Shown piece after piece: positions 1-7,722 of a DNA stretch of 32,954 nucleotides. The translations under genes were made by a program, and so were the position numbers. Positions within the stretch are counted from its first letter, which is position 1. Every line of letters starts with the position of its first letter. The stretch comes from Fidelibacterota bacterium (lineage in GTDB: Bacteria; Pseudomonadota; Alphaproteobacteria; Rhodospirillales; Rhodospirillaceae): NCBI GenBank assembly GCA_947476065.1, contig CANJPG010000035.1:1-32954 (forward strand). Direction: 5' to 3'. The notes beneath the pieces were generated by a model. It ran no database searches and was not told the DNA's origin. It was given only the letters and a program-made list of their open reading frames with translations.

Positions 1-2880
1 GACACCCAGATCAGCGGCCTCTCGGCCACGCAGTTGAACAGCCTGGGTGCAGACTCTTTCAGCGCGCTGACGTCCACGCAATTGGCGGGCTTCTCGACCA
101 CCCAGGTGAAGGCCATCTCGGCAGCCAACATCGCCCAGCTGACCACCGTGCAGTTCGGCGGGTTCTCCTCGACCCAGGTAGGCGTGCTCACGACAACCCA
201 GGTGAAAGCCCTATCGCCTACGGTCGTCAACGCACTCACCGCCATTCAGCTCAGCGGCATTAGCGCTACGGTCGTGGGCGTGCTCGACGCCAACCAGCTT
301 AACGCGCTCACCACCACCAATATCGCTGGCCTAGCGCAGACGCAGATCGGCGGCCTCAGCTCAACGCAGTTGGGCGCGTTCGACGCAACGCACTTCGGCG
401 CGCTCACATCCGACCAGTTGGGCGGCATGACGGCAACGCAAGTCAAAGGCTTCTCGGTCGATGAGTTGGCGGCACTTTCCACCCATCAGGTCGGCGGCCT
501 CACGTCCACGCAGATGGCTGCCTTCAGCGCGGTCCAGCTGAGTGCGCTGACGCCGACGGTGGTTGCAGCCTTGGCCGATACCCAGATCGACGGCCTCACT
601 GCCACGCAAATCGGCGGTCTCGACAGCGACACCTTCGCCGGCTTCGCCTCCACGCAGCTGACGGGCTTCACCAGCACCCAGGTTAAGGGGTTCTCGGTCG
701 CCGAGATCGATGCGCTGACCGTGGGGCAGGTGAGCGGCTTCGACTCAACCCAACTTGCCGCACTGGCGACGACCCAGGTCGCGGCCCTGACGCTCCCCGC
801 CATTACGTCGCTCACCGCGGGCCAGCTGAGTGGCCTGTTGTCCACGCAAGTTGGTGCGCTGACGCCCGATCAGGTCAACGCGCTGACCACGGCCAACGTC
901 GGCACGCTGACATCCACACAGCTCGACGGTCTGACCTCGACGCAGGTCGCCCAACTCGATGCCACGCATTTCGCCTCGCTGACCTCGGACCAGCTCAACA
1001 GCCTGTCCGTGACCCAGGTCAAGGCGATCACCGCTGCAGACCTCGGCATCATCACGACTGTCCAAGTTGCCGGCCTGCTGTCGACCCAGCTGGCGGCGCT
1101 GTCCACGGCGCAGCTGGAAGCCTTCAGCGCGACCGCCGTGGCTGCGCTCACCGATACCCAGATCAGCGGCCTTTCGGCCACGCAGCTGAGCAGCCTGGGT
1201 GCGGATTCCTTCAGCGCGCTGACGTCCACGCAATTGGCGGGCTTCTCGACCACGCAGATCAAGTCCATTTCCGCCGCCAATATCGCGCAACTGACCACCG
1301 TGCAGTTCGGCGGTTTCTCTTCGACCCAGCTGGGCGTGCTGACGACGACGCAGGTCAAGGCGCTGTCGCCGCCGGTCGTCGAAGCCATGACGGCGGTCCA
1401 GCTCAGCGGTCTGGGCGCAGCCGCTCTGGGTGTGCTCGATCCGGGCCAACTGAATTCGTTGACCACAACCAATATCGCTGCCTTGGCCGCGACCCAGATC
1501 GCCGGCCTCACCTCTACACAGCTGGGTGCGTTCGATACTGTCCGCTTCGGGGCCCTGACCTCCGATCAGCTGGGCGGCATGAACTCCACTCAGATCAAAG
1601 GGTTCTCGGTCGATGAACTGACCTTGCTCTCGACGCGCCAGGTCGGCGGGCTGACCTCGACCCAACTGGGCGTGCTCACCACGGTCCAGCTCAGCGCGCT
1701 GACGCCCACAGTGGTATCGGCCTTGGCCGACACGCAGATCGATGGGCTGACCGCTGCGCAATTGGGCGGCATTGATACCGACAGCTTCGCCGGCTTTACC
1801 TCGAGCCAGCTGACCGGATTTACGACGACCCAGGTCAAGGGCCTGTCCACTGCGTCCGTTGATGCCCTGACGGCGGGCCAGCTGAGCGGCCTCGACTCAA
1901 CCCAACTGGGCGCACTGGCCAGCACGCAGGTCGCTGCCATTACCGCCGCCGTTGTCGCAACGCTGACCGCTGCCCAGGTAAGCGGCTTTGCCTCGACCCA
2001 GGTCGGCGCCCTGACTACGGGGCAGGTGAACGCCCTGACCACCACCAATATCGGCCAGCTGACCTCGGTGCAGCTCGACGGCCTGACGTCTACCCAGGTG
2101 GCCCAACTCGACGCCACGCATTTTGCGGCGCTGACGTCGGACCAGCTCAATAGCTTCTCAAACGTCCAGGTCCAGGCGCTATCCGTCGGCGATCTTTCGG
2201 TACTCACCACCGTGCAGGCGGGCGGCCTGACATCGACCCAGCTCGCCGTCCTCTCGACCGTCCAACTTGGCGCGTTCACGGCTACGGTCTTCAACGCGCT
2301 GACCGACACCCAAATCAGCGGCCTGTCCGCCACGCAGTTCGGCAACCTGAGCCCCGATGTATTCGCCGGCTTCACCTCGACCCAGATGGCGGCCTTCAGC
2401 ACCACCCAGGTCAAGGCGCTCTCGGCGGCCAACCTCGCGGCGTTGACGACAGCTCAGTTCAGCGGCTTCACGTCCACCCAGATCGGCGTGCTGAGCACGA
2501 CTCAAGTCAAAGCCCTGTCGTCGGTAGTTGTTGGATCCCTGACGGCCGCACAGCTCAGCGGCCTTGGCTCCACGGCCGTTGGTGCGCTCGATCCCACGCA
2601 GCTGAATGCCCTGACCACCACCAACATCACGGCGCTCACATACGCTCAGCTCGACGGCCTAACGGCGACGCAGCTGACGGGCCTCGACTCCGGCCAGTTT
2701 GCCGTCATGACCTCCGATCAGCTGGGCAGCTTCACGACGACCCAGGTGAAGGGTCTTTCCGTAGATGCCCTGTCGGTGCTGACGACCGTGCAGCTGGGCG
2801 GCATTACCTCCACGCAGCTAGGGGTGCTGGCCGGCACGCAGCTCAACGCGCTGTCGCCAACCCTGATCGCCAATCTGACC
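1..2880 (+). repeat. Five consecutive 576-bp units (24 octads each) inside the giant gene
   Basis: Units start at 1, 577, 1153, 1729 and 2305, each opening with a DTQIxGL octad; a further DAQIDGF opens at 2881. Each unit divides into 14 octads (336 bp) and 10 octads (240 bp): secondary starts at 337, 913, 1489, 2065 and 2641 also carry a TQI/TQL-xGL octad, and most are soon followed by a D-x-x-[HR]-F-type octad. After 2881 the order changes: starts at 3217, 3553, 3793 and 4033 are spaced 336, 336, 240 and 240 bp. Units 1 and 3 are more alike than 1 and 2, suggesting an additional 1152-bp duplication; 58-101 and 1210-1253 are identical. Confidence 0.85.
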
Positions 2881-4542
2881 GATGCCCAGATCGACGGCTT
2901 CACCTCGGCCCAGATCGGCGCGATCGACCTGGTACCCTTCAGCGGTTTCACCTCGTCACAGCTGACGGGTCTGACGACGACGCAGGTCAAGGGCCTCACC
3001 GGACTGCAGATCGACGGCCTCACGGCCCAGCAGTTCTCGGGCCTGTCCTCGACCCAGCTGGGCGCTTTCTCGGCGACACAGATCAAGGCCCTGGCCGGCG
3101 GCAGCATCGACGCGCTGACCACCACGCAGCTGTCCGGTCTGACCACCACCCAGGTTGCGGCACTGACCTCGATGCAGCTGAACGAGCTGTCGGTCACCAA
3201 CGTCGCCAACCTCAGCGACCCGCAGATCGACGGCCTAACGGTCACCCAGATCGCCAGCCTCGACACCGGGCCGTTCGCCGGATTCACGTCGACCCAGCTC
3301 ACCGGCTTCACGACGACGCAGGTCAAGGCGCTGAACGTCTTCCAGCTCGACGTCATGACCACGGCGCAGTTCAGCGGCCTGACGTCGACGCAGCTCGGCG
3401 TGCTGTCCACCACCCAGGTTAAGGCGCTGACCCCGGCGCTCCTGGAATCGCTGACCGTGACGCAGCTGGGCGGCCTGACGTCGCTGCAAGTAGGGGCCCT
3501 GGCCACGACCCAGGTAAACGCGCTGACCACCACCAGCATCGCGGCACTCACCGATCCGCAAATCGACGGCCTGGCGGCCGCGCAACTTGGCGGCCTCGAC
3601 GGCCTGCCCTTCAAGGGCTTTACCTCGACGCAGCTCACCGGCTTTACGACGACTCAAGTCAAGGCGCTGTCCACCAGCGCACTGGCCGAACTCACGGCGG
3701 CCCAGGTCACCGGCCTCAGCTCCACGGCCATCGGCGTGCTGACCACGACACAGCTCAATGTGCTCACCGCCACCGCCATGGCCGCGCTCAGCGACACGCA
3801 GATCGATGCCATGTCGTCGGGCCAGCTCGGCGGCCTCGATACCACGCGCTTCGGCTCGTTCACCTCGTCGCAGTTCACGGGTCTGACCACCACGCAGCTC
3901 AATGGCTTGACGACCACCCAGTTCGGCGTGCTGTCGGCGGCTCAACTCAGCGGGTTCAGCGCCGACGAAATGGCCGTGCTGGCCCAGACCCAGCTCAATG
4001 CCTTCACACCGGCGATCATCTCGACCCTGGCGGCGACGCAGCTGGGCGGCATGTCCTCGACGCAGCTTGGCCAGCTCGATACCACACACTTCCTCGCGCT
4101 GACCTCGTCCCAGCTCAGCGGCCTGACGAGTACGCAGGTCCAGGGCTTTGCCGCGACTGAACTGGTCCTCATGACCCCGGCGCAATTCTCGGGGCTGACT
4201 TCGACTCAGATGACGGCTTTGACCTCACCGCAGATATCCAGCCTCAACACCACGGATATCGCGGCCATGACTTCGTTCCAGCTGAGCGGGCTGACCTCGA
4301 CGCAAATCGGCGCCCTGACCATGACCCAGGTGGTAGCGCTCACCACGTCGTCCATCGTCGATCTGTCCACCACGCAGATGACGGGCCTCGAGCCGCAGGA
4401 CATCTCGCAGTTCACGCTGACTCAGATCCCGGCTTTCGAGACCACCGATCTGTCCGTGCTCAACAGCACGCAGATCGCCGCCTTCACATCGACCCAGCTG
4501 GGCGTGATGTCCTCGACTCAGCTCAACGCGATTGGGATGTAG
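1..4542 (+). CDS. Giant octapeptide-repeat protein (3' part; start lies outside the window)
   Basis: The frame is open from base 1 to a TAG at 4540-4542, giving 1513 visible residues. They read as 189 consecutive octads with no insertion or deletion. In the phase that starts at base 1 the consensus is [STDA]-T-Q-[LIV]-x-[GA]-[LF]-[ST], for example STQLGAFD or TTQVKALS. The sequence is rich in T, S, Q, A, L and G. Lysine is found mostly in QVKAL or QVKGF octads, and I see no Cys or Trp. The phase at the end (STQLNAIG then a last Met) matches the phase at the start. Similar TTxQIAAL-type repeats occur in large, probably exported proteins of Proteobacteria, usually without known function. No signal peptide, anchor or catalytic domain is visible, and the C-terminus is still repeat. 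A surface or secreted structural role is a guess. The stop overlaps the convergent transporter gene by 20 bases. Confidence 0.9.
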   Translation, partial: DTQISGLSATQLNSLGADSFSALTSTQLAGFSTTQVKAISAANIAQLTTVQFGGFSSTQVGVLTTTQVKALSPTVVNALTAIQLSGISATVVGVLDANQLNALTTTNIAGLAQTQIGGLSSTQLGAFDATHFGALTSDQLGGMTATQVKGFSVDELAALSTHQVGGLTSTQMAAFSAVQLSALTPTVVAALADTQIDGLTATQIGGLDSDTFAGFASTQLTGFTSTQVKGFSVAEIDALTVGQVSGFDSTQLAALATTQVAALTLPAITSLTAGQLSGLLSTQVGALTPDQVNALTTANVGTLTSTQLDGLTSTQVAQLDATHFASLTSDQLNSLSVTQVKAITAADLGIITTVQVAGLLSTQLAALSTAQLEAFSATAVAALTDTQISGLSATQLSSLGADSFSALTSTQLAGFSTTQIKSISAANIAQLTTVQFGGFSSTQLGVLTTTQVKALSPPVVEAMTAVQLSGLGAAALGVLDPGQLNSLTTTNIAALAATQIAGLTSTQLGAFDTVRFGALTSDQLGGMNSTQIKGFSVDELTLLSTRQVGGLTSTQLGVLTTVQLSALTPTVVSALADTQIDGLTAAQLGGIDTDSFAGFTSSQLTGFTTTQVKGLSTASVDALTAGQLSGLDSTQLGALASTQVAAITAAVVATLTAAQVSGFASTQVGALTTGQVNALTTTNIGQLTSVQLDGLTSTQVAQLDATHFAALTSDQLNSFSNVQVQALSVGDLSVLTTVQAGGLTSTQLAVLSTVQLGAFTATVFNALTDTQISGLSATQFGNLSPDVFAGFTSTQMAAFSTTQVKALSAANLAALTTAQFSGFTSTQIGVLSTTQVKALSSVVVGSLTAAQLSGLGSTAVGALDPTQLNALTTTNITALTYAQLDGLTATQLTGLDSGQFAVMTSDQLGSFTTTQVKGLSVDALSVLTTVQLGGITSTQLGVLAGTQLNALSPTLIANLTDAQIDGFTSAQIGAIDLVPFSGFTSSQLTGLTTTQVKGLTGLQIDGLTAQQFSGLSSTQLGAFSATQIKALAGGSIDALTTTQLSGLTTTQVAALTSMQLNELSVTNVANLSDPQIDGLTVTQIASLDTGPFAGFTSTQLTGFTTTQVKALNVFQLDVMTTAQFSGLTSTQLGVLSTTQVKALTPALLESLTVTQLGGLTSLQVGALATTQVNALTTTSIAALTDPQIDGLAAAQLGGLDGLPFKGFTSTQLTGFTTTQVKALSTSALAELTAAQVTGLSSTAIGVLTTTQLNVLTATAMAALSDTQIDAMSSGQLGGLDTTRFGSFTSSQFTGLTTTQLNGLTTTQFGVLSAAQLSGFSADEMAVLAQTQLNAFTPAIISTLAATQLGGMSSTQLGQLDTTHFLALTSSQLSGLTSTQVQGFAATELVLMTPAQFSGLTSTQMTALTSPQISSLNTTDIAAMTSFQLSGLTSTQIGALTMTQVVALTTSSIVDLSTTQMTGLEPQDISQFTLTQIPAFETTDLSVLNSTQIAAFTSTQLGVMSSTQLNAIGM

Positions 4543-5458
4543 GGCTTCGGGACTTCAGCGCCCGCAAGGGCCTGCCGTCGATGAACGCCAATCCGATGCC
4601 GATCACCGCCATGCCGGCAATATGCGCCGGTTGCAGCTGTTCGCCGAGGAACACGGCGCCCAGGATGATGGCGGTAATGGGGTTGAGGAAGGTCACCAAG
4701 CCGACGTTGGTCGCACCGGCCGTGGCCAGGATATGGAAATACAGCACGTAGGCCACGCCCGAGCAGAACACCACCAGCACCGCCATGGCGGCGAGCACGT
4801 CGTTTGATGGCATCGCCAGCGCCCACGGGCGGTCAGTCGCCAGCATTATGGGCACCAGGATGATGCTGGCCGTGGTCAATTGCGCGGTAGCCGCTGCCAG
4901 GGGCGGTACGCCCGCGAAGCGCCGGCCGTAGACCGCGGCAAAGGCATAGGACAGGGAGGCCACGAGACAGGCCAGCTGTGCCAAAACATTCCCGCTGAAG
5001 ACCGAGTCAAATTCGCTGCCGATCATCGCGGCGACGCCAAGCAGGCCAATCGCGGCGCCGGCGATATGGCCCGGCGTCATTTTCTCATCGCGGGTCAGCA
5101 CATGGGCCACGACCACCGTGAACAGCGGCGTCGTGGCGTTGAGGATCGAAGCCAGCCCGCCAGTGATATGCGTCTGACTCCAAGCAAACAGGCAGAAAGG
5201 GATGACGTTGTTGAGCACGCCCAGCCAGGCGAATCCCAGCCATGCGCGTCCGCGCGGCATGTCAACACCGCGCGCCCGCGCGAATGCATATAAGAGAATA
5301 GCCGCCAGATTCAACCGCACGGTAACCAGCGTAATCGGCGGCAGTTCCTTGATCGCAACGCCGATAAAGAAAAACGAGCCGCCCCACAAGACGCCTAGCG
5401 CCAACAGCGCTGCCCATTGTAGCGGCGTCATGGATTGATTGATTTGCGGCGGCATCAT
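4523..5458 (-). CDS. EamA/DMT-family transporter
   Basis: This 311-residue integral membrane protein has about ten hydrophobic segments in two EamA halves, the usual size and layout of drug/metabolite-transporter superfamily permeases. The segment near residues 15-33 (ALLALGVLWGGSFFFIGVA) is a typical first EamA helix. A second-half signature (TNVGLVTFLNPITAIILG) appears near residues 245-262. The substrate cannot be read from sequence; family members export amino acids or other small metabolites across the inner membrane. The ATG at 5458 has a GGAG ribosome site about eight bases upstream. The gene ends inside the 3' end of the convergent repeat gene. The EF-G-like gene lies 46 bases upstream on the same strand, so co-transcription is possible. 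Confidence 0.88.
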   Translation of the reverse strand: MMPPQINQSMTPLQWAALLALGVLWGGSFFFIGVAIKELPPITLVTVRLNLAAILLYAFARARGVDMPRGRAWLGFAWLGVLNNVIPFCLFAWSQTHITGGLASILNATTPLFTVVVAHVLTRDEKMTPGHIAGAAIGLLGVAAMIGSEFDSVFSGNVLAQLACLVASLSYAFAAVYGRRFAGVPPLAAATAQLTTASIILVPIMLATDRPWALAMPSNDVLAAMAVLVVFCSGVAYVLYFHILATAGATNVGLVTFLNPITAIILGAVFLGEQLQPAHIAGMAVIGIGLAFIDGRPLRALKSRSPTSQSR

Positions 5459-5504: not shown

Positions 5505-7541
5505 CTAGTGGGCCAGCGCCTGCTTTCTCTGCTGGGTGACTTTTTCGGCGTCGCGGCCGATCAGCTCCTGATAATGGCTGAACTTGTGATCGAAAGTGCC
5601 GATGCCTTGCGAGATCGAGCGGATCTCGGTGATCAGGGTCTGCATCTCGCTCTCAGGCATGTTGACCTGGATGACCTCCCAGCCGTCCCAGCCTTCGCGG
5701 GCATTGAAGCCCAGGATTTGGGCGCGGTGCTGGGTGACGGCGCGCTGCACCTTCGATGTGAACTCGGTGGGCACATAAATGTTTACCTCGCAGATCGGCT
5801 CCAGCAGCACCGGCTCGCACTGTGGCAGACCCTCGGTGAGCGCCTGGCGGGCGGCGGTCCTGAAGGCCTGGTCCGAGCTGTCGACGCTGTGATATTGGCC
5901 GTCGAACAGTTTCACGTTCAAGTCCACCACCGGGAATCCCAGGGGTCCCTGGGCGATGTTGTCGCGCAGGCCGGCTTCGACGCCGGGGATGAAGTTGCGC
6001 GGCACCACACCGCCGACGATGGCGTCAGTGAAGGTGAATCCCTGGCCGCGGGGCAGGGGATTGATCTCCACCTTGATGTCGGCGAACTGCCCGTGCCCGC
6101 CCGACTGCCTCTTATGCCGCGCGTGCTGGATGACGGCCTTGCGGATGGTCTCGCGGTAAGGCACCTGCGGCGTTCGGGTGTCGATCACCAGATCGAACTT
6201 GCGCTTCACCCGGTCCAGCGCGATTTGCAACTGGATATCGCCCTGGCCGCGCAGCAGCATCTCGGCGGTCTCGGCCACATGCTGCAGCGACAGGGACGGG
6301 TCCTCTTCACAGATTTTACGCAAGGATTCACCCAGCTTGACGTCGTCCTTGCGGTCCTTGGCCATGACCGCGACGGTGTACAGCGCCGTGGGACCCGTGG
6401 GCCATGTTTGCGGCTCCACGACACCGTCGGCGGTGAGGATGCTGCCCGCGTGTCCGGCCTCGAGTTTTGTCACGGCGACAACGTTGCCGGCGCTGACGTT
6501 GTGTACTTTGGCTTTGCCGAGTTTCGGCTCGGCGCCGTCCTGCATATTGCTGATGCGCACACCGGCCAGCGTATCGCCGTCCTTCAGCGCGCCGCGCCAC
6601 ACCCTGATCAGCGACAGCTTGCCGATATGTGGGGCGTAATCGACCTTGTAGATCTGCGCCGCCAAAGGAACATCGGGAATGCCCAGCCGCTCGGCGGTTT
6701 TGGCGGCGCTCGGCACCTCGTGGCGCAGCAGCTTCATCAGCCGGCGCACGCCATGTTCATGCTCGGCCGCGCCGATCAGCACCGGCACGATCAAATCCTC
6801 TTGCAGATCCTTGGTCAGCTGCCGGTAAACCTCGTTTTTGTCCGGCACGATGTCTTCCAGCAACTTTTCCAGGAGGGCGTCATCGAAGTCCGACAGCTTC
6901 TCGATCAGTTCGCGGCGCGAGTCCGGAACACTTTCGTCGGAGAACTTGTCGATGGGAATGCGTTCGGACGGCTTGTCGAGTTCGTAGTGATAGGCGCGCT
7001 CGGCCACCAGATCGACATAGCCGGTGATCTTGGCGCCCCGCACCAGCGGGATGTGCCGCAACACCAGGGGCCGCGCCGATTGACGCTGGGCCGATGTTAG
7101 CAGATCACGCACCGGACCGCTGGTGGTGTCCATTTTGTTGATGAACAGAATGTGGGGAATCTTGTGGTCATCAAGAAAGCGGAAGATGGGCCCGAGCGCA
7201 AGCATGCGGTCGGCGTCGGGATCGGTGACGACGATGACGGTATCGGCGGTCATCATGCCTTGGCGCGCTTCCTGGCTGAGATCAACCGCGCCCGGGCAAT
7301 CCAGCGCCACCCACTCGTCACCCAGATAGGAGAACCGCGCCGGCGTCAGCTGCGTCGACATTTGCCGCGCGCGGGCTTCCGGACTGGCGTCGCCCACCGT
7401 CGTACCGTTGCTGATGCGGCCCTTCTTGGACATGGCGCCCGCCGCCAGCATCATACTTTCCAGCAGCGTCGTTTTGCCGCTCGACTGCGGGCCGACCAGG
7501 GCGATACATCTTGTACCCTTCGCGCTCTTTGCCTCTGTCAT
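5505..7541 (-). CDS. Elongation factor G-like GTPase (FusA2-type)
   Basis: The 678-residue protein has the EF-G domain order: GTPase domain, beta-barrel domain II, domains III and IV (with GGHGQFADIKVEI and GVVPRNFIPGVEAG) and a C-terminal EF-G domain V. The P-loop is GPQSSGKTT near residues 17-25, G3 is DCPGAVD and G4 is NKMD. The catalytic His of ordinary EF-G (DxPGH) is replaced by Ala. Together with the non-standard P-loop, this places it in the EF-G-like branch found beside true FusA in many alphaproteobacteria, whose cellular role is not well defined. It is therefore probably not the housekeeping translocase. The ATG at 7541 has a very strong GGGAGGAG site. A terminator-like hairpin ends about 25 bases upstream of the start. 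Confidence 0.9.
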   Translation of the reverse strand: MTEAKSAKGTRCIALVGPQSSGKTTLLESMMLAAGAMSKKGRISNGTTVGDASPEARARQMSTQLTPARFSYLGDEWVALDCPGAVDLSQEARQGMMTADTVIVVTDPDADRMLALGPIFRFLDDHKIPHILFINKMDTTSGPVRDLLTSAQRQSARPLVLRHIPLVRGAKITGYVDLVAERAYHYELDKPSERIPIDKFSDESVPDSRRELIEKLSDFDDALLEKLLEDIVPDKNEVYRQLTKDLQEDLIVPVLIGAAEHEHGVRRLMKLLRHEVPSAAKTAERLGIPDVPLAAQIYKVDYAPHIGKLSLIRVWRGALKDGDTLAGVRISNMQDGAEPKLGKAKVHNVSAGNVVAVTKLEAGHAGSILTADGVVEPQTWPTGPTALYTVAVMAKDRKDDVKLGESLRKICEEDPSLSLQHVAETAEMLLRGQGDIQLQIALDRVKRKFDLVIDTRTPQVPYRETIRKAVIQHARHKRQSGGHGQFADIKVEINPLPRGQGFTFTDAIVGGVVPRNFIPGVEAGLRDNIAQGPLGFPVVDLNVKLFDGQYHSVDSSDQAFRTAARQALTEGLPQCEPVLLEPICEVNIYVPTEFTSKVQRAVTQHRAQILGFNAREGWDGWEVIQVNMPESEMQTLITEIRSISQGIGTFDHKFSHYQELIGRDAEKVTQQRKQALAH

Positions 7542-7594: not shown

Positions 7595-7722
7595 GCATCT
7601 CCTCGGTCTACTGTTTCGCCGGTGACGGCGGCAGCGGCATTGTCGGCGATAACGGGTGCGCTGAGGGGCGTCCGGGTCTGTGCCGGGCGAGGCGGTTTTT
7701 GGAACATCTCGACTTGCGTCAT
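7582..7722 (-). CDS. Possible 46-residue small or leader protein upstream of the EF-G-like gene
   Basis: The minus-strand frame from the ATG at 7722 encodes MTQVEMFQKPPRPAQTRTPL and continues to GDARSP. It is preceded by AGGGA three bases from the ATG, which is rather close. A GTG at 7767 would extend it to 61 residues. The stop TAG (7584-7582) falls in the loop and first stem base of the terminator. I recognise no family; the product is hydrophilic and Ala/Pro-rich, without a signal peptide or membrane segment. It could be a real small protein, a leader peptide controlling termination, or chance coding inside a small RNA. Confidence 0.35.
   Translation of the reverse strand: MTQVEMFQKPPRPAQTRTPLSAPVIADNAAAAVTGETVDRGDARSP

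Follow-up and report, generated by a model that had tools for sequence, protein, structure and literature searches.

The window analysed here is a stretch of 32,954 nucleotides that makes up the whole of one contig (C35) in a source genome of 158 contigs. The contig start falls inside a giant gene of ALTTAQ repeats, and because the window spans the entire contig, this gene is cut by the assembly and has its 5′ end beyond the contig. Frame 1 is open over 1-4542 and encodes 189 octads, a final Met and a stop; a profile parser found 0 phase breaks, in agreement with the 189 in-phase octads of a preliminary description made from the sequence. The octad consensus is [ST]TQ[LVI]x[GA]L[TS]. The fragment is 28% Ser+Thr, Cys and Trp are absent, and it has 21 Lys+Arg vs 73 Asp+Glu, a charge balance for which DNA/RNA binding was judged unlikely. 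The features at the locus are as follows.

1..4542, plus strand: C-terminal part (1513 aa) of a giant ALTTAQ-repeat protein, based on the open frame, the Pfam family PF20080 and an ortholog in genome G001
1..2880, plus strand: five 24-octad units, each a 14-octad and then a 10-octad module, with a higher unit of 48 octads (1152 bp)
2881..4368, plus strand: modules of 14, 14, 10, 10 and 14 octads, starting at 2881, 3217, 3553, 3793 and 4033 (module parse)
4369..4539, plus strand: 7-octad C-terminal tail plus Met, with low AF2 confidence; the tail likewise lies outside the modules in both orthologs
4523..5458, minus strand: EamA-family exporter, the downstream neighbour (PF00892), 60% identical to a homolog at the same place in G001
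5505..7541, minus strand: EF-G-like translation factor, a conserved neighbour (NCBIfam PRK12740.1-3, 922 bits)

The EF-G-like factor is outside the ALTTAQ system, and the EamA-family exporter is not thought to be part of it.

Module architecture and the complete gene

The five 576-bp units in register, each of 14 plus 10 octads, were verified at starts 1, 577, 1153, 1729 and 2305. The order described previously from 2881 (14, 14, 10, 10) also stands, and is followed by a further 14-octad module and the 7-octad tail, both of which had been missed. The module parse scored 994 vs 53 ± 15 in 20 shuffled orders, using profiles that derive from the window protein itself with boundaries set by eye. 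A 14-octad module corresponds to a 10-octad module plus four octads resembling the preceding four, and the two can be rendered as 2+4+4+4 and 2+4+4, respectively. Octad self-identity was 0.593 at lag 48 and 0.495 at lag 24 (maximum of 200 octad shuffles, 0.372), and since lag 48 exceeds lag 24, it is a 48-octad unit of 1152 bp that repeats most strongly, rather than the 24-octad one. Comparison of its first two copies (1-1152 and 1153-2304) gave a pS of 0.573 and a pN of 0.142, and the units are therefore maintained by selection on the protein. The 24-by-24 hierarchy (24 octads of 24 bases) that had been proposed is a coincidence and was rejected, because 24 bases are just 8 codons and relatives use units of 14, 17, 27, 34 and 44 octads. 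The architecture itself is real and regular, and its module lengths are no random spread; the interpretation first given to it is partly supported.

Two orthologs give an idea of the complete gene. In G001, a genome of the same genus, an ORF of 4332 aa has a similar C-terminal end and is followed by EamA (60%) and EF-G (87%) homologs; its modules alternate between 10 and 14 octads over most of the array. In G007 the ortholog has ~2113 aa and is followed by an EF-G homolog (83% identity), and no EamA homolog was found in the stretch beside it. The 7-octad tail terminates both.

On another contig of the source genome (C65), an ALTTAQ ORF extends past the contig edge. Its first 120 residues are 46% identical to the start of the G007 ortholog and 43% to that of G001, but also 43% to the start of the gene upstream of it, so that the N-terminal match is non-specific. 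This upstream gene matches the genes that precede the two orthologs (58% and 69%), and on this ground the C65 ORF is probably the N-terminal portion of the window gene, part of which would be missing from the assembly between the two contigs; the contigs were kept separate. Upstream of the C65 ORF sits a 606-aa ALTTAQ protein (L033, 2325-4145, minus strand) in which two proline-rich linkers separate the repeat blocks, and relatives occupy the same place in G001 and G007.

Repeat phase, predicted fold and the proposed turn

The window protein belongs to Pfam PF20080 (ALTTAQ_rpt), which it matches with 543.3 bits vs a curated cut-off of 26.4. The two are alike in repeat sequence and 8-residue phase, whereas the Pfam model is a 38-residue repeat. 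We found no paper on the ALTTAQ family in the literature searched, most subscription papers lying outside its coverage, and in the same literature no account of whole-turn modules or of secretion or GT41 neighbours for PF20080; the repeat itself is a described family, and a description of the module architecture was not found there. With a 48-octad query at E 1e-20, relatives were detected in 20 of 61 genomes, the source genome included. Of 398 genomes from the phylum, 21 contain ALTTAQ relatives (again counting the source genome), as do 58 of 72,556 plasmid records, 41 of these from Rhizobium, Shinella or Cereibacter. Cereibacter sphaeroides has an ALTTAQ gene, and a match to the family was likewise seen in Caulobacter vibrioides. 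The closest plasmid relatives of the window protein are alphaproteobacterial. A genome-contig scan added one locus, on a Magnetococcales contig.

Exact phase is family-wide and not special to the window gene. Across 38 ORFs, with 7899 octads in all, 20 phase breaks were counted, near copies (L075/L164 and L162/L165) and genes split over frames (L156 and L166) being retained; a held-out set had 42 in 5282 octads. With so few breaks, strict phase is a trait of the ALTTAQ family. Phase breaks are rare but tolerated, contrary to what had been suggested: a single one occurs close to the N-terminus of the G001 ortholog. In two plasmids, from Pseudoroseomonas (L156, 6098-10587) and Pseudomonas asturiensis (L166, 5765-13209), the ALTTAQ region is broken into several ORFs.

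The long regular solenoid proposed previously agrees with the AF2 models, in which each octad is predicted to form one short alpha-helix; the helices would wind into a continuous screw-like solenoid. A 4-row alignment of window units gave 48 helices for 48 octads (pLDDT 93.1) and no strands. Modelled as a single sequence, 2881-4539 gave about one short helix per octad, again with no strands (pLDDT 83.2), and confidence dropped to 51-68 over the last ~70 residues. Among solved chains, 9zem_A ('HeliScrew4', 120 residues) aligned without gaps over 106 residues (E 3e-12), a likeness by sequence only; its name suggests a designed protein, and no paper on it was found in the literature searched. The chain was absent among the best 50 Foldseek matches of either search. 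Mesothelin (PDB 8cx3, 7ued) was the top match in one search (E 5.1e-6) and second in the other (E 4.5e-5); TM-scores of Foldseek matches with E up to 0.001 were at most 0.36. The solved mesothelin solenoid is right-handed, its 24 short helices form nine layers, and each of its repeats, of 27-37 residues, completes a circle (PMC10035497), which makes a turn of 27 residues plausible. Mesothelin repeats are irregular and sequence identity is 14-18%; the likeness is one of layout and is no evidence of kinship. Foldseek matches to viral models were set aside for their low TM-scores (0.17 at the best listed E, 1.7e-8).

Fourier and lag analyses were carried out on 32 of the 38 ORFs, arrays of <55 consecutive octads being excluded. 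A band of 0.283-0.299 cycles per octad contained the strongest peak of 28 arrays out of 32, the other four (L077 and three pieces of L166) peaking elsewhere; in the held-out set 10 of 15 arrays peaked in the band and five outside. From these periods we infer a solenoid with ~3.4 octads (27 residues) per turn, in which one long face of the screw would differ in sequence from the others. In three held-out arrays of a distant family (L169-L171), a 2-octad alternation dominates over the 3.4-octad period. Phases of sequence features along the screw agreed between lineages for F at position 4 (R 0.90) and, at position 1, for both T (R 0.87) and S (R 0.81); they disagreed for non-Q at position 3 (R 0.34) and for T at position 2 (R 0.38). 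Because the features of a single octad are coupled, these phases were dropped as proof of a shared geometry.

The same spectra could arise if the true turn had 4 octads and the modules carried a 2-octad half block, the peaks at 0.292 and 0.208 then being sidebands of 1/4. Both sidebands are present, and octads inside modules resemble those 4 later (e.g., identity 0.60, 0.56). Helix lengths in the first AF2 model, taken as a check on the 3.4-octad turn, gave peaks of 4.03 (p 0.017) and 4.67 octads (p 0.14) instead of 3.4, and were counted against it. However, L031 and L071, with little tandem structure, have the 0.292 peak and a weak peak near 0.21, and the 17- and 27-octad units of other lineages, being odd, are impossible from fours and twos and fit a turn of 3.415. 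We consider a 4-octad turn unlikely, though the likeliest of the alternatives. With ~3.4 octads per turn, 10 octads would make 3 turns, 14 would make 4, 17 would make 5 and 24 would make 7; the window fragment would have ~55 turns and the G001 ortholog ~159. Helical solenoids rise about 1 nm per turn, at which the G001 ortholog would form a fibre ~150 nm long.

Type I secretion and GT41 genes near ALTTAQ arrays

Another ALTTAQ locus of the source genome, on contig C45, has the gene order TPR protein, HlyB-like ABC transporter, HlyD adaptor and an ALTTAQ ORF reaching the end of the contig. The ABC transporter scored 588 bits, under the cut-off of 726 for the HlyB-like subfamily model, and the HlyD adaptor 323 bits, over its cut-off of 209. 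The ALTTAQ ORF (L032) changes frame at ~7684, within ~7600-7690, which may be an assembly slip or a genuine frameshift. The genome G003 shares this order and has in addition a GT41 glycosyltransferase (PF13844, E 2.5e-81).

This linkage recurs in relatives. Close homologs of the C45 ABC transporter (>1100 bits) were found in 11 of the 61 genomes, and an ALTTAQ array lies downstream in 10 of the 11 (eight of nine by script, the source genome and G003 from their ORFs); the contig of the eleventh (G006) stops 635 bases past the ABC gene. At distant ABC loci ALTTAQ was found in none of the nine fetched, out of 14 distant matches, two of which G031 contributed on one contig. Flanks of 1.5 kb contained ALTTAQ at 0/11 close and 0/14 distant loci; because HlyD lies between the ABC gene and the array, wider stretches were used for 9/11 close and 9/14 distant loci. 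For GT41 (PF13844), 8 of 13 close homologs were within 1.5 kb of ALTTAQ, compared with 0 of 14 distant ones. Across the 61 genomes, close ABC homologs occurred in 10/20 with ALTTAQ vs 1/41 others (p 1.9e-5) and close GT41 homologs in 12/20 vs 1/41 (p 8e-7), with the bit-score limits for 'close' chosen after the matches were seen. In 15 plasmid loci, tblastn showed a GT41 homolog at 10 and the annotation named one at an eleventh, six had a T1SS ABC gene, those of Pseudomonas being of a different subfamily, and four had neither (L159, L161, L163, L167). Among 15 held-out stretches, GT41 was present in two, ABC + HlyD in three, and neither in 10. The source genome also has 18 GT41/TPR matches, with a close GT41 fragment on C93 and several distant ones on C14 and C20.

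The link of ALTTAQ to type I secretion and GT41 glycosylation is new here. ALTTAQ proteins would leave the cell through the matching type I system, with no N-terminal signal being cleaved off; both orthologs start with repeats almost immediately as judged by eye, the window gene itself being without a start. Based on the gene linkage, the GT41 enzyme probably O-glycosylates them on Ser/Thr. The preliminary description had suggested a search for secretion genes, and these were found for the family (on C45 and in relatives) and not beside the window gene. As the whole window is without a T1SS or GT41 gene, export of its protein would be in trans, and the one point that helps this reading is a C-terminal motif also seen in T1SS-linked proteins. 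This motif, F[TS]..Q...M[TS]..Q.., is in the window tail and shared with relatives; it was drawn by eye from the ORF ends in which it was then counted, and was present at 19 of 34 ORF ends vs 45 occurrences in ORF interiors (ORFs of 7899 octads in all). It also occurs in the T1SS-linked L070, L136, L138, L075, L156, L157 and L164. A short non-repeat segment that differs from the alphaproteobacterial motif terminates two Pseudomonas ALTTAQ ORFs (L158 and L166, 10429-13206), and a third ORF (L168), with an adjacent GT41 gene, has a similar end.

Were ALTTAQ proteins instead cytoplasmic scaffolds, with T1SS and GT41 genes near some paralogs for another reason, a window without either gene would be expected, as would the five of 20 ALTTAQ genomes without a close homolog of either. 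The linkage of close homologs, set against controls of 0/9 (ABC) and 0/14 (GT41), and its recurrence on Pseudomonas and Cereibacter plasmids make this improbable. The window protein is most likely an exported, O-glycosylated alpha-screw fibre with a putative role at the surface.

Known systems offer partial parallels. The Haemophilus adhesin HMW1 is a large secreted protein paired with a GT41 enzyme, HMW1C, and its own exporter, a combination that ALTTAQ resembles; HMW1 differs in its beta-helix fold and its two-partner export, whereas ALTTAQ has a type I secretion partner and a predicted helical repeat. RTX and LapA-type adhesins are giant repetitive proteins that use type I secretion, and ALTTAQ proteins are also giant, repetitive and T1SS-linked, but a Pfam scan of the window protein (1-4539, E ≤ 1) listed no RTX calcium-binding nonapeptide repeat (HemolysinCabind).

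Quantised unit lengths across lineages

The super-repeat length varies by lineage, with units of 10, 14, 17, 24, 27, 34, 44, 48 and other numbers of octads. In the genus of the window the leading lag is most commonly 24 or 48; it is 14 in G054 and 34 in Cereibacter. Rhodovastum and two Rhizobium arrays have 17, another two Rhizobium arrays have 27, and Pseudomonas arrays have 17, 27 or 44. Rayleigh tests were run on the distinct top lags, 14 in the main set. These agree with multiples of 3.415 octads (R 0.83), and 0 of 3000 random sets equalled this over all periods; they are near whole multiples and not the random spread that would have spoken against the architecture. The top lag was within the shuffle maximum in three of the 32 arrays (L031, L033, L161) and one of the 15 held-out ones (L173). 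Without the two lags resting solely on such arrays, R was 0.885 at 3.40 (0/3000), and with eight lags of which none is a multiple of another, R was 0.884 (p 0.0001). The held-out set comprised 15 newly fetched stretches, which gave 15 arrays (one stretch none, another two). With 3.415 fixed, their eight distinct lags gave R 0.829 (p 0.00045), and a rerun with the 14 arrays above shuffle gave p 0.001. Lags 5 and 22, which are misfits to 3.415, rank in the top five of pieces of L166.

The near-whole-turn rule for module lengths is also new here. If one face of the screw is distinct, duplicated blocks would fit best near whole numbers of turns. Unequal crossing-over could alternatively have passed on founder blocks with no structural rule, and many lags are indeed multiples of each other (24/48, 17/34/68), with 24 dominant in the genus of the window and also at three loci of f70, a distant family. 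The lags 10, 14, 17, 24, 27 and 44 have no common divisor, yet one turn value fits them, and the eight mutually non-multiple lags and the held-out lags fit the same turn; inheritance of founder blocks by itself is thus quite improbable.

We regard it as rather probable that ALTTAQ proteins are extracellular screw fibres with ~3.4 octads per turn, built from near-whole-turn blocks, exported by T1SS and probably O-glycosylated. For the fuller statement, that they are exported O-glycosylated alpha-screw fibres whose length changes mostly by near-whole turns (~3.415 octads), which would keep a distinct stripe straight along >150 turns, the chances seem about even. If true, sequence statistics alone would reveal the pitch of a natural helical fibre whose structure is unsolved, and the family would be a clean natural case of structure restricting the lengths of gene duplications. 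Proteins called 'hypothetical', 'heme utilization' or 'ICE nucleation' in the plasmid records examined would gain testable predictions of their fold, helical pitch, exporter and modifying enzyme, and the modular helical fibre could possibly be useful in design.

Two further readings are very improbable. A leucine-rich-repeat-like solenoid, with 3 octads as a 24-residue LRR unit, is suggested by PF23952 (LRR_EndoS, 52.6 bits vs a cut-off of 27.9) and by many LRR chains listed by phmmer (best E 3.5e-4), but that match is far weaker than the one to PF20080, the AF2 models show none of the strands that an LRR has in each repeat, no Fourier peak at 3.0 leads, and spaced leucines are probably what matched. 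An ice-nucleation-like or haem-uptake exoprotein is what the plasmid records of Cereibacter and Pseudomonas relatives name ('ICE nucleation protein' or 'heme utilization protein'), but ice-nucleation proteins are beta-solenoids, the AF2 models are helical without strands, and no such family was listed in the Pfam scan of the window protein. The above-cut-off Pfam matches to CAAP1 and LRR_EndoS were taken as composition matches.
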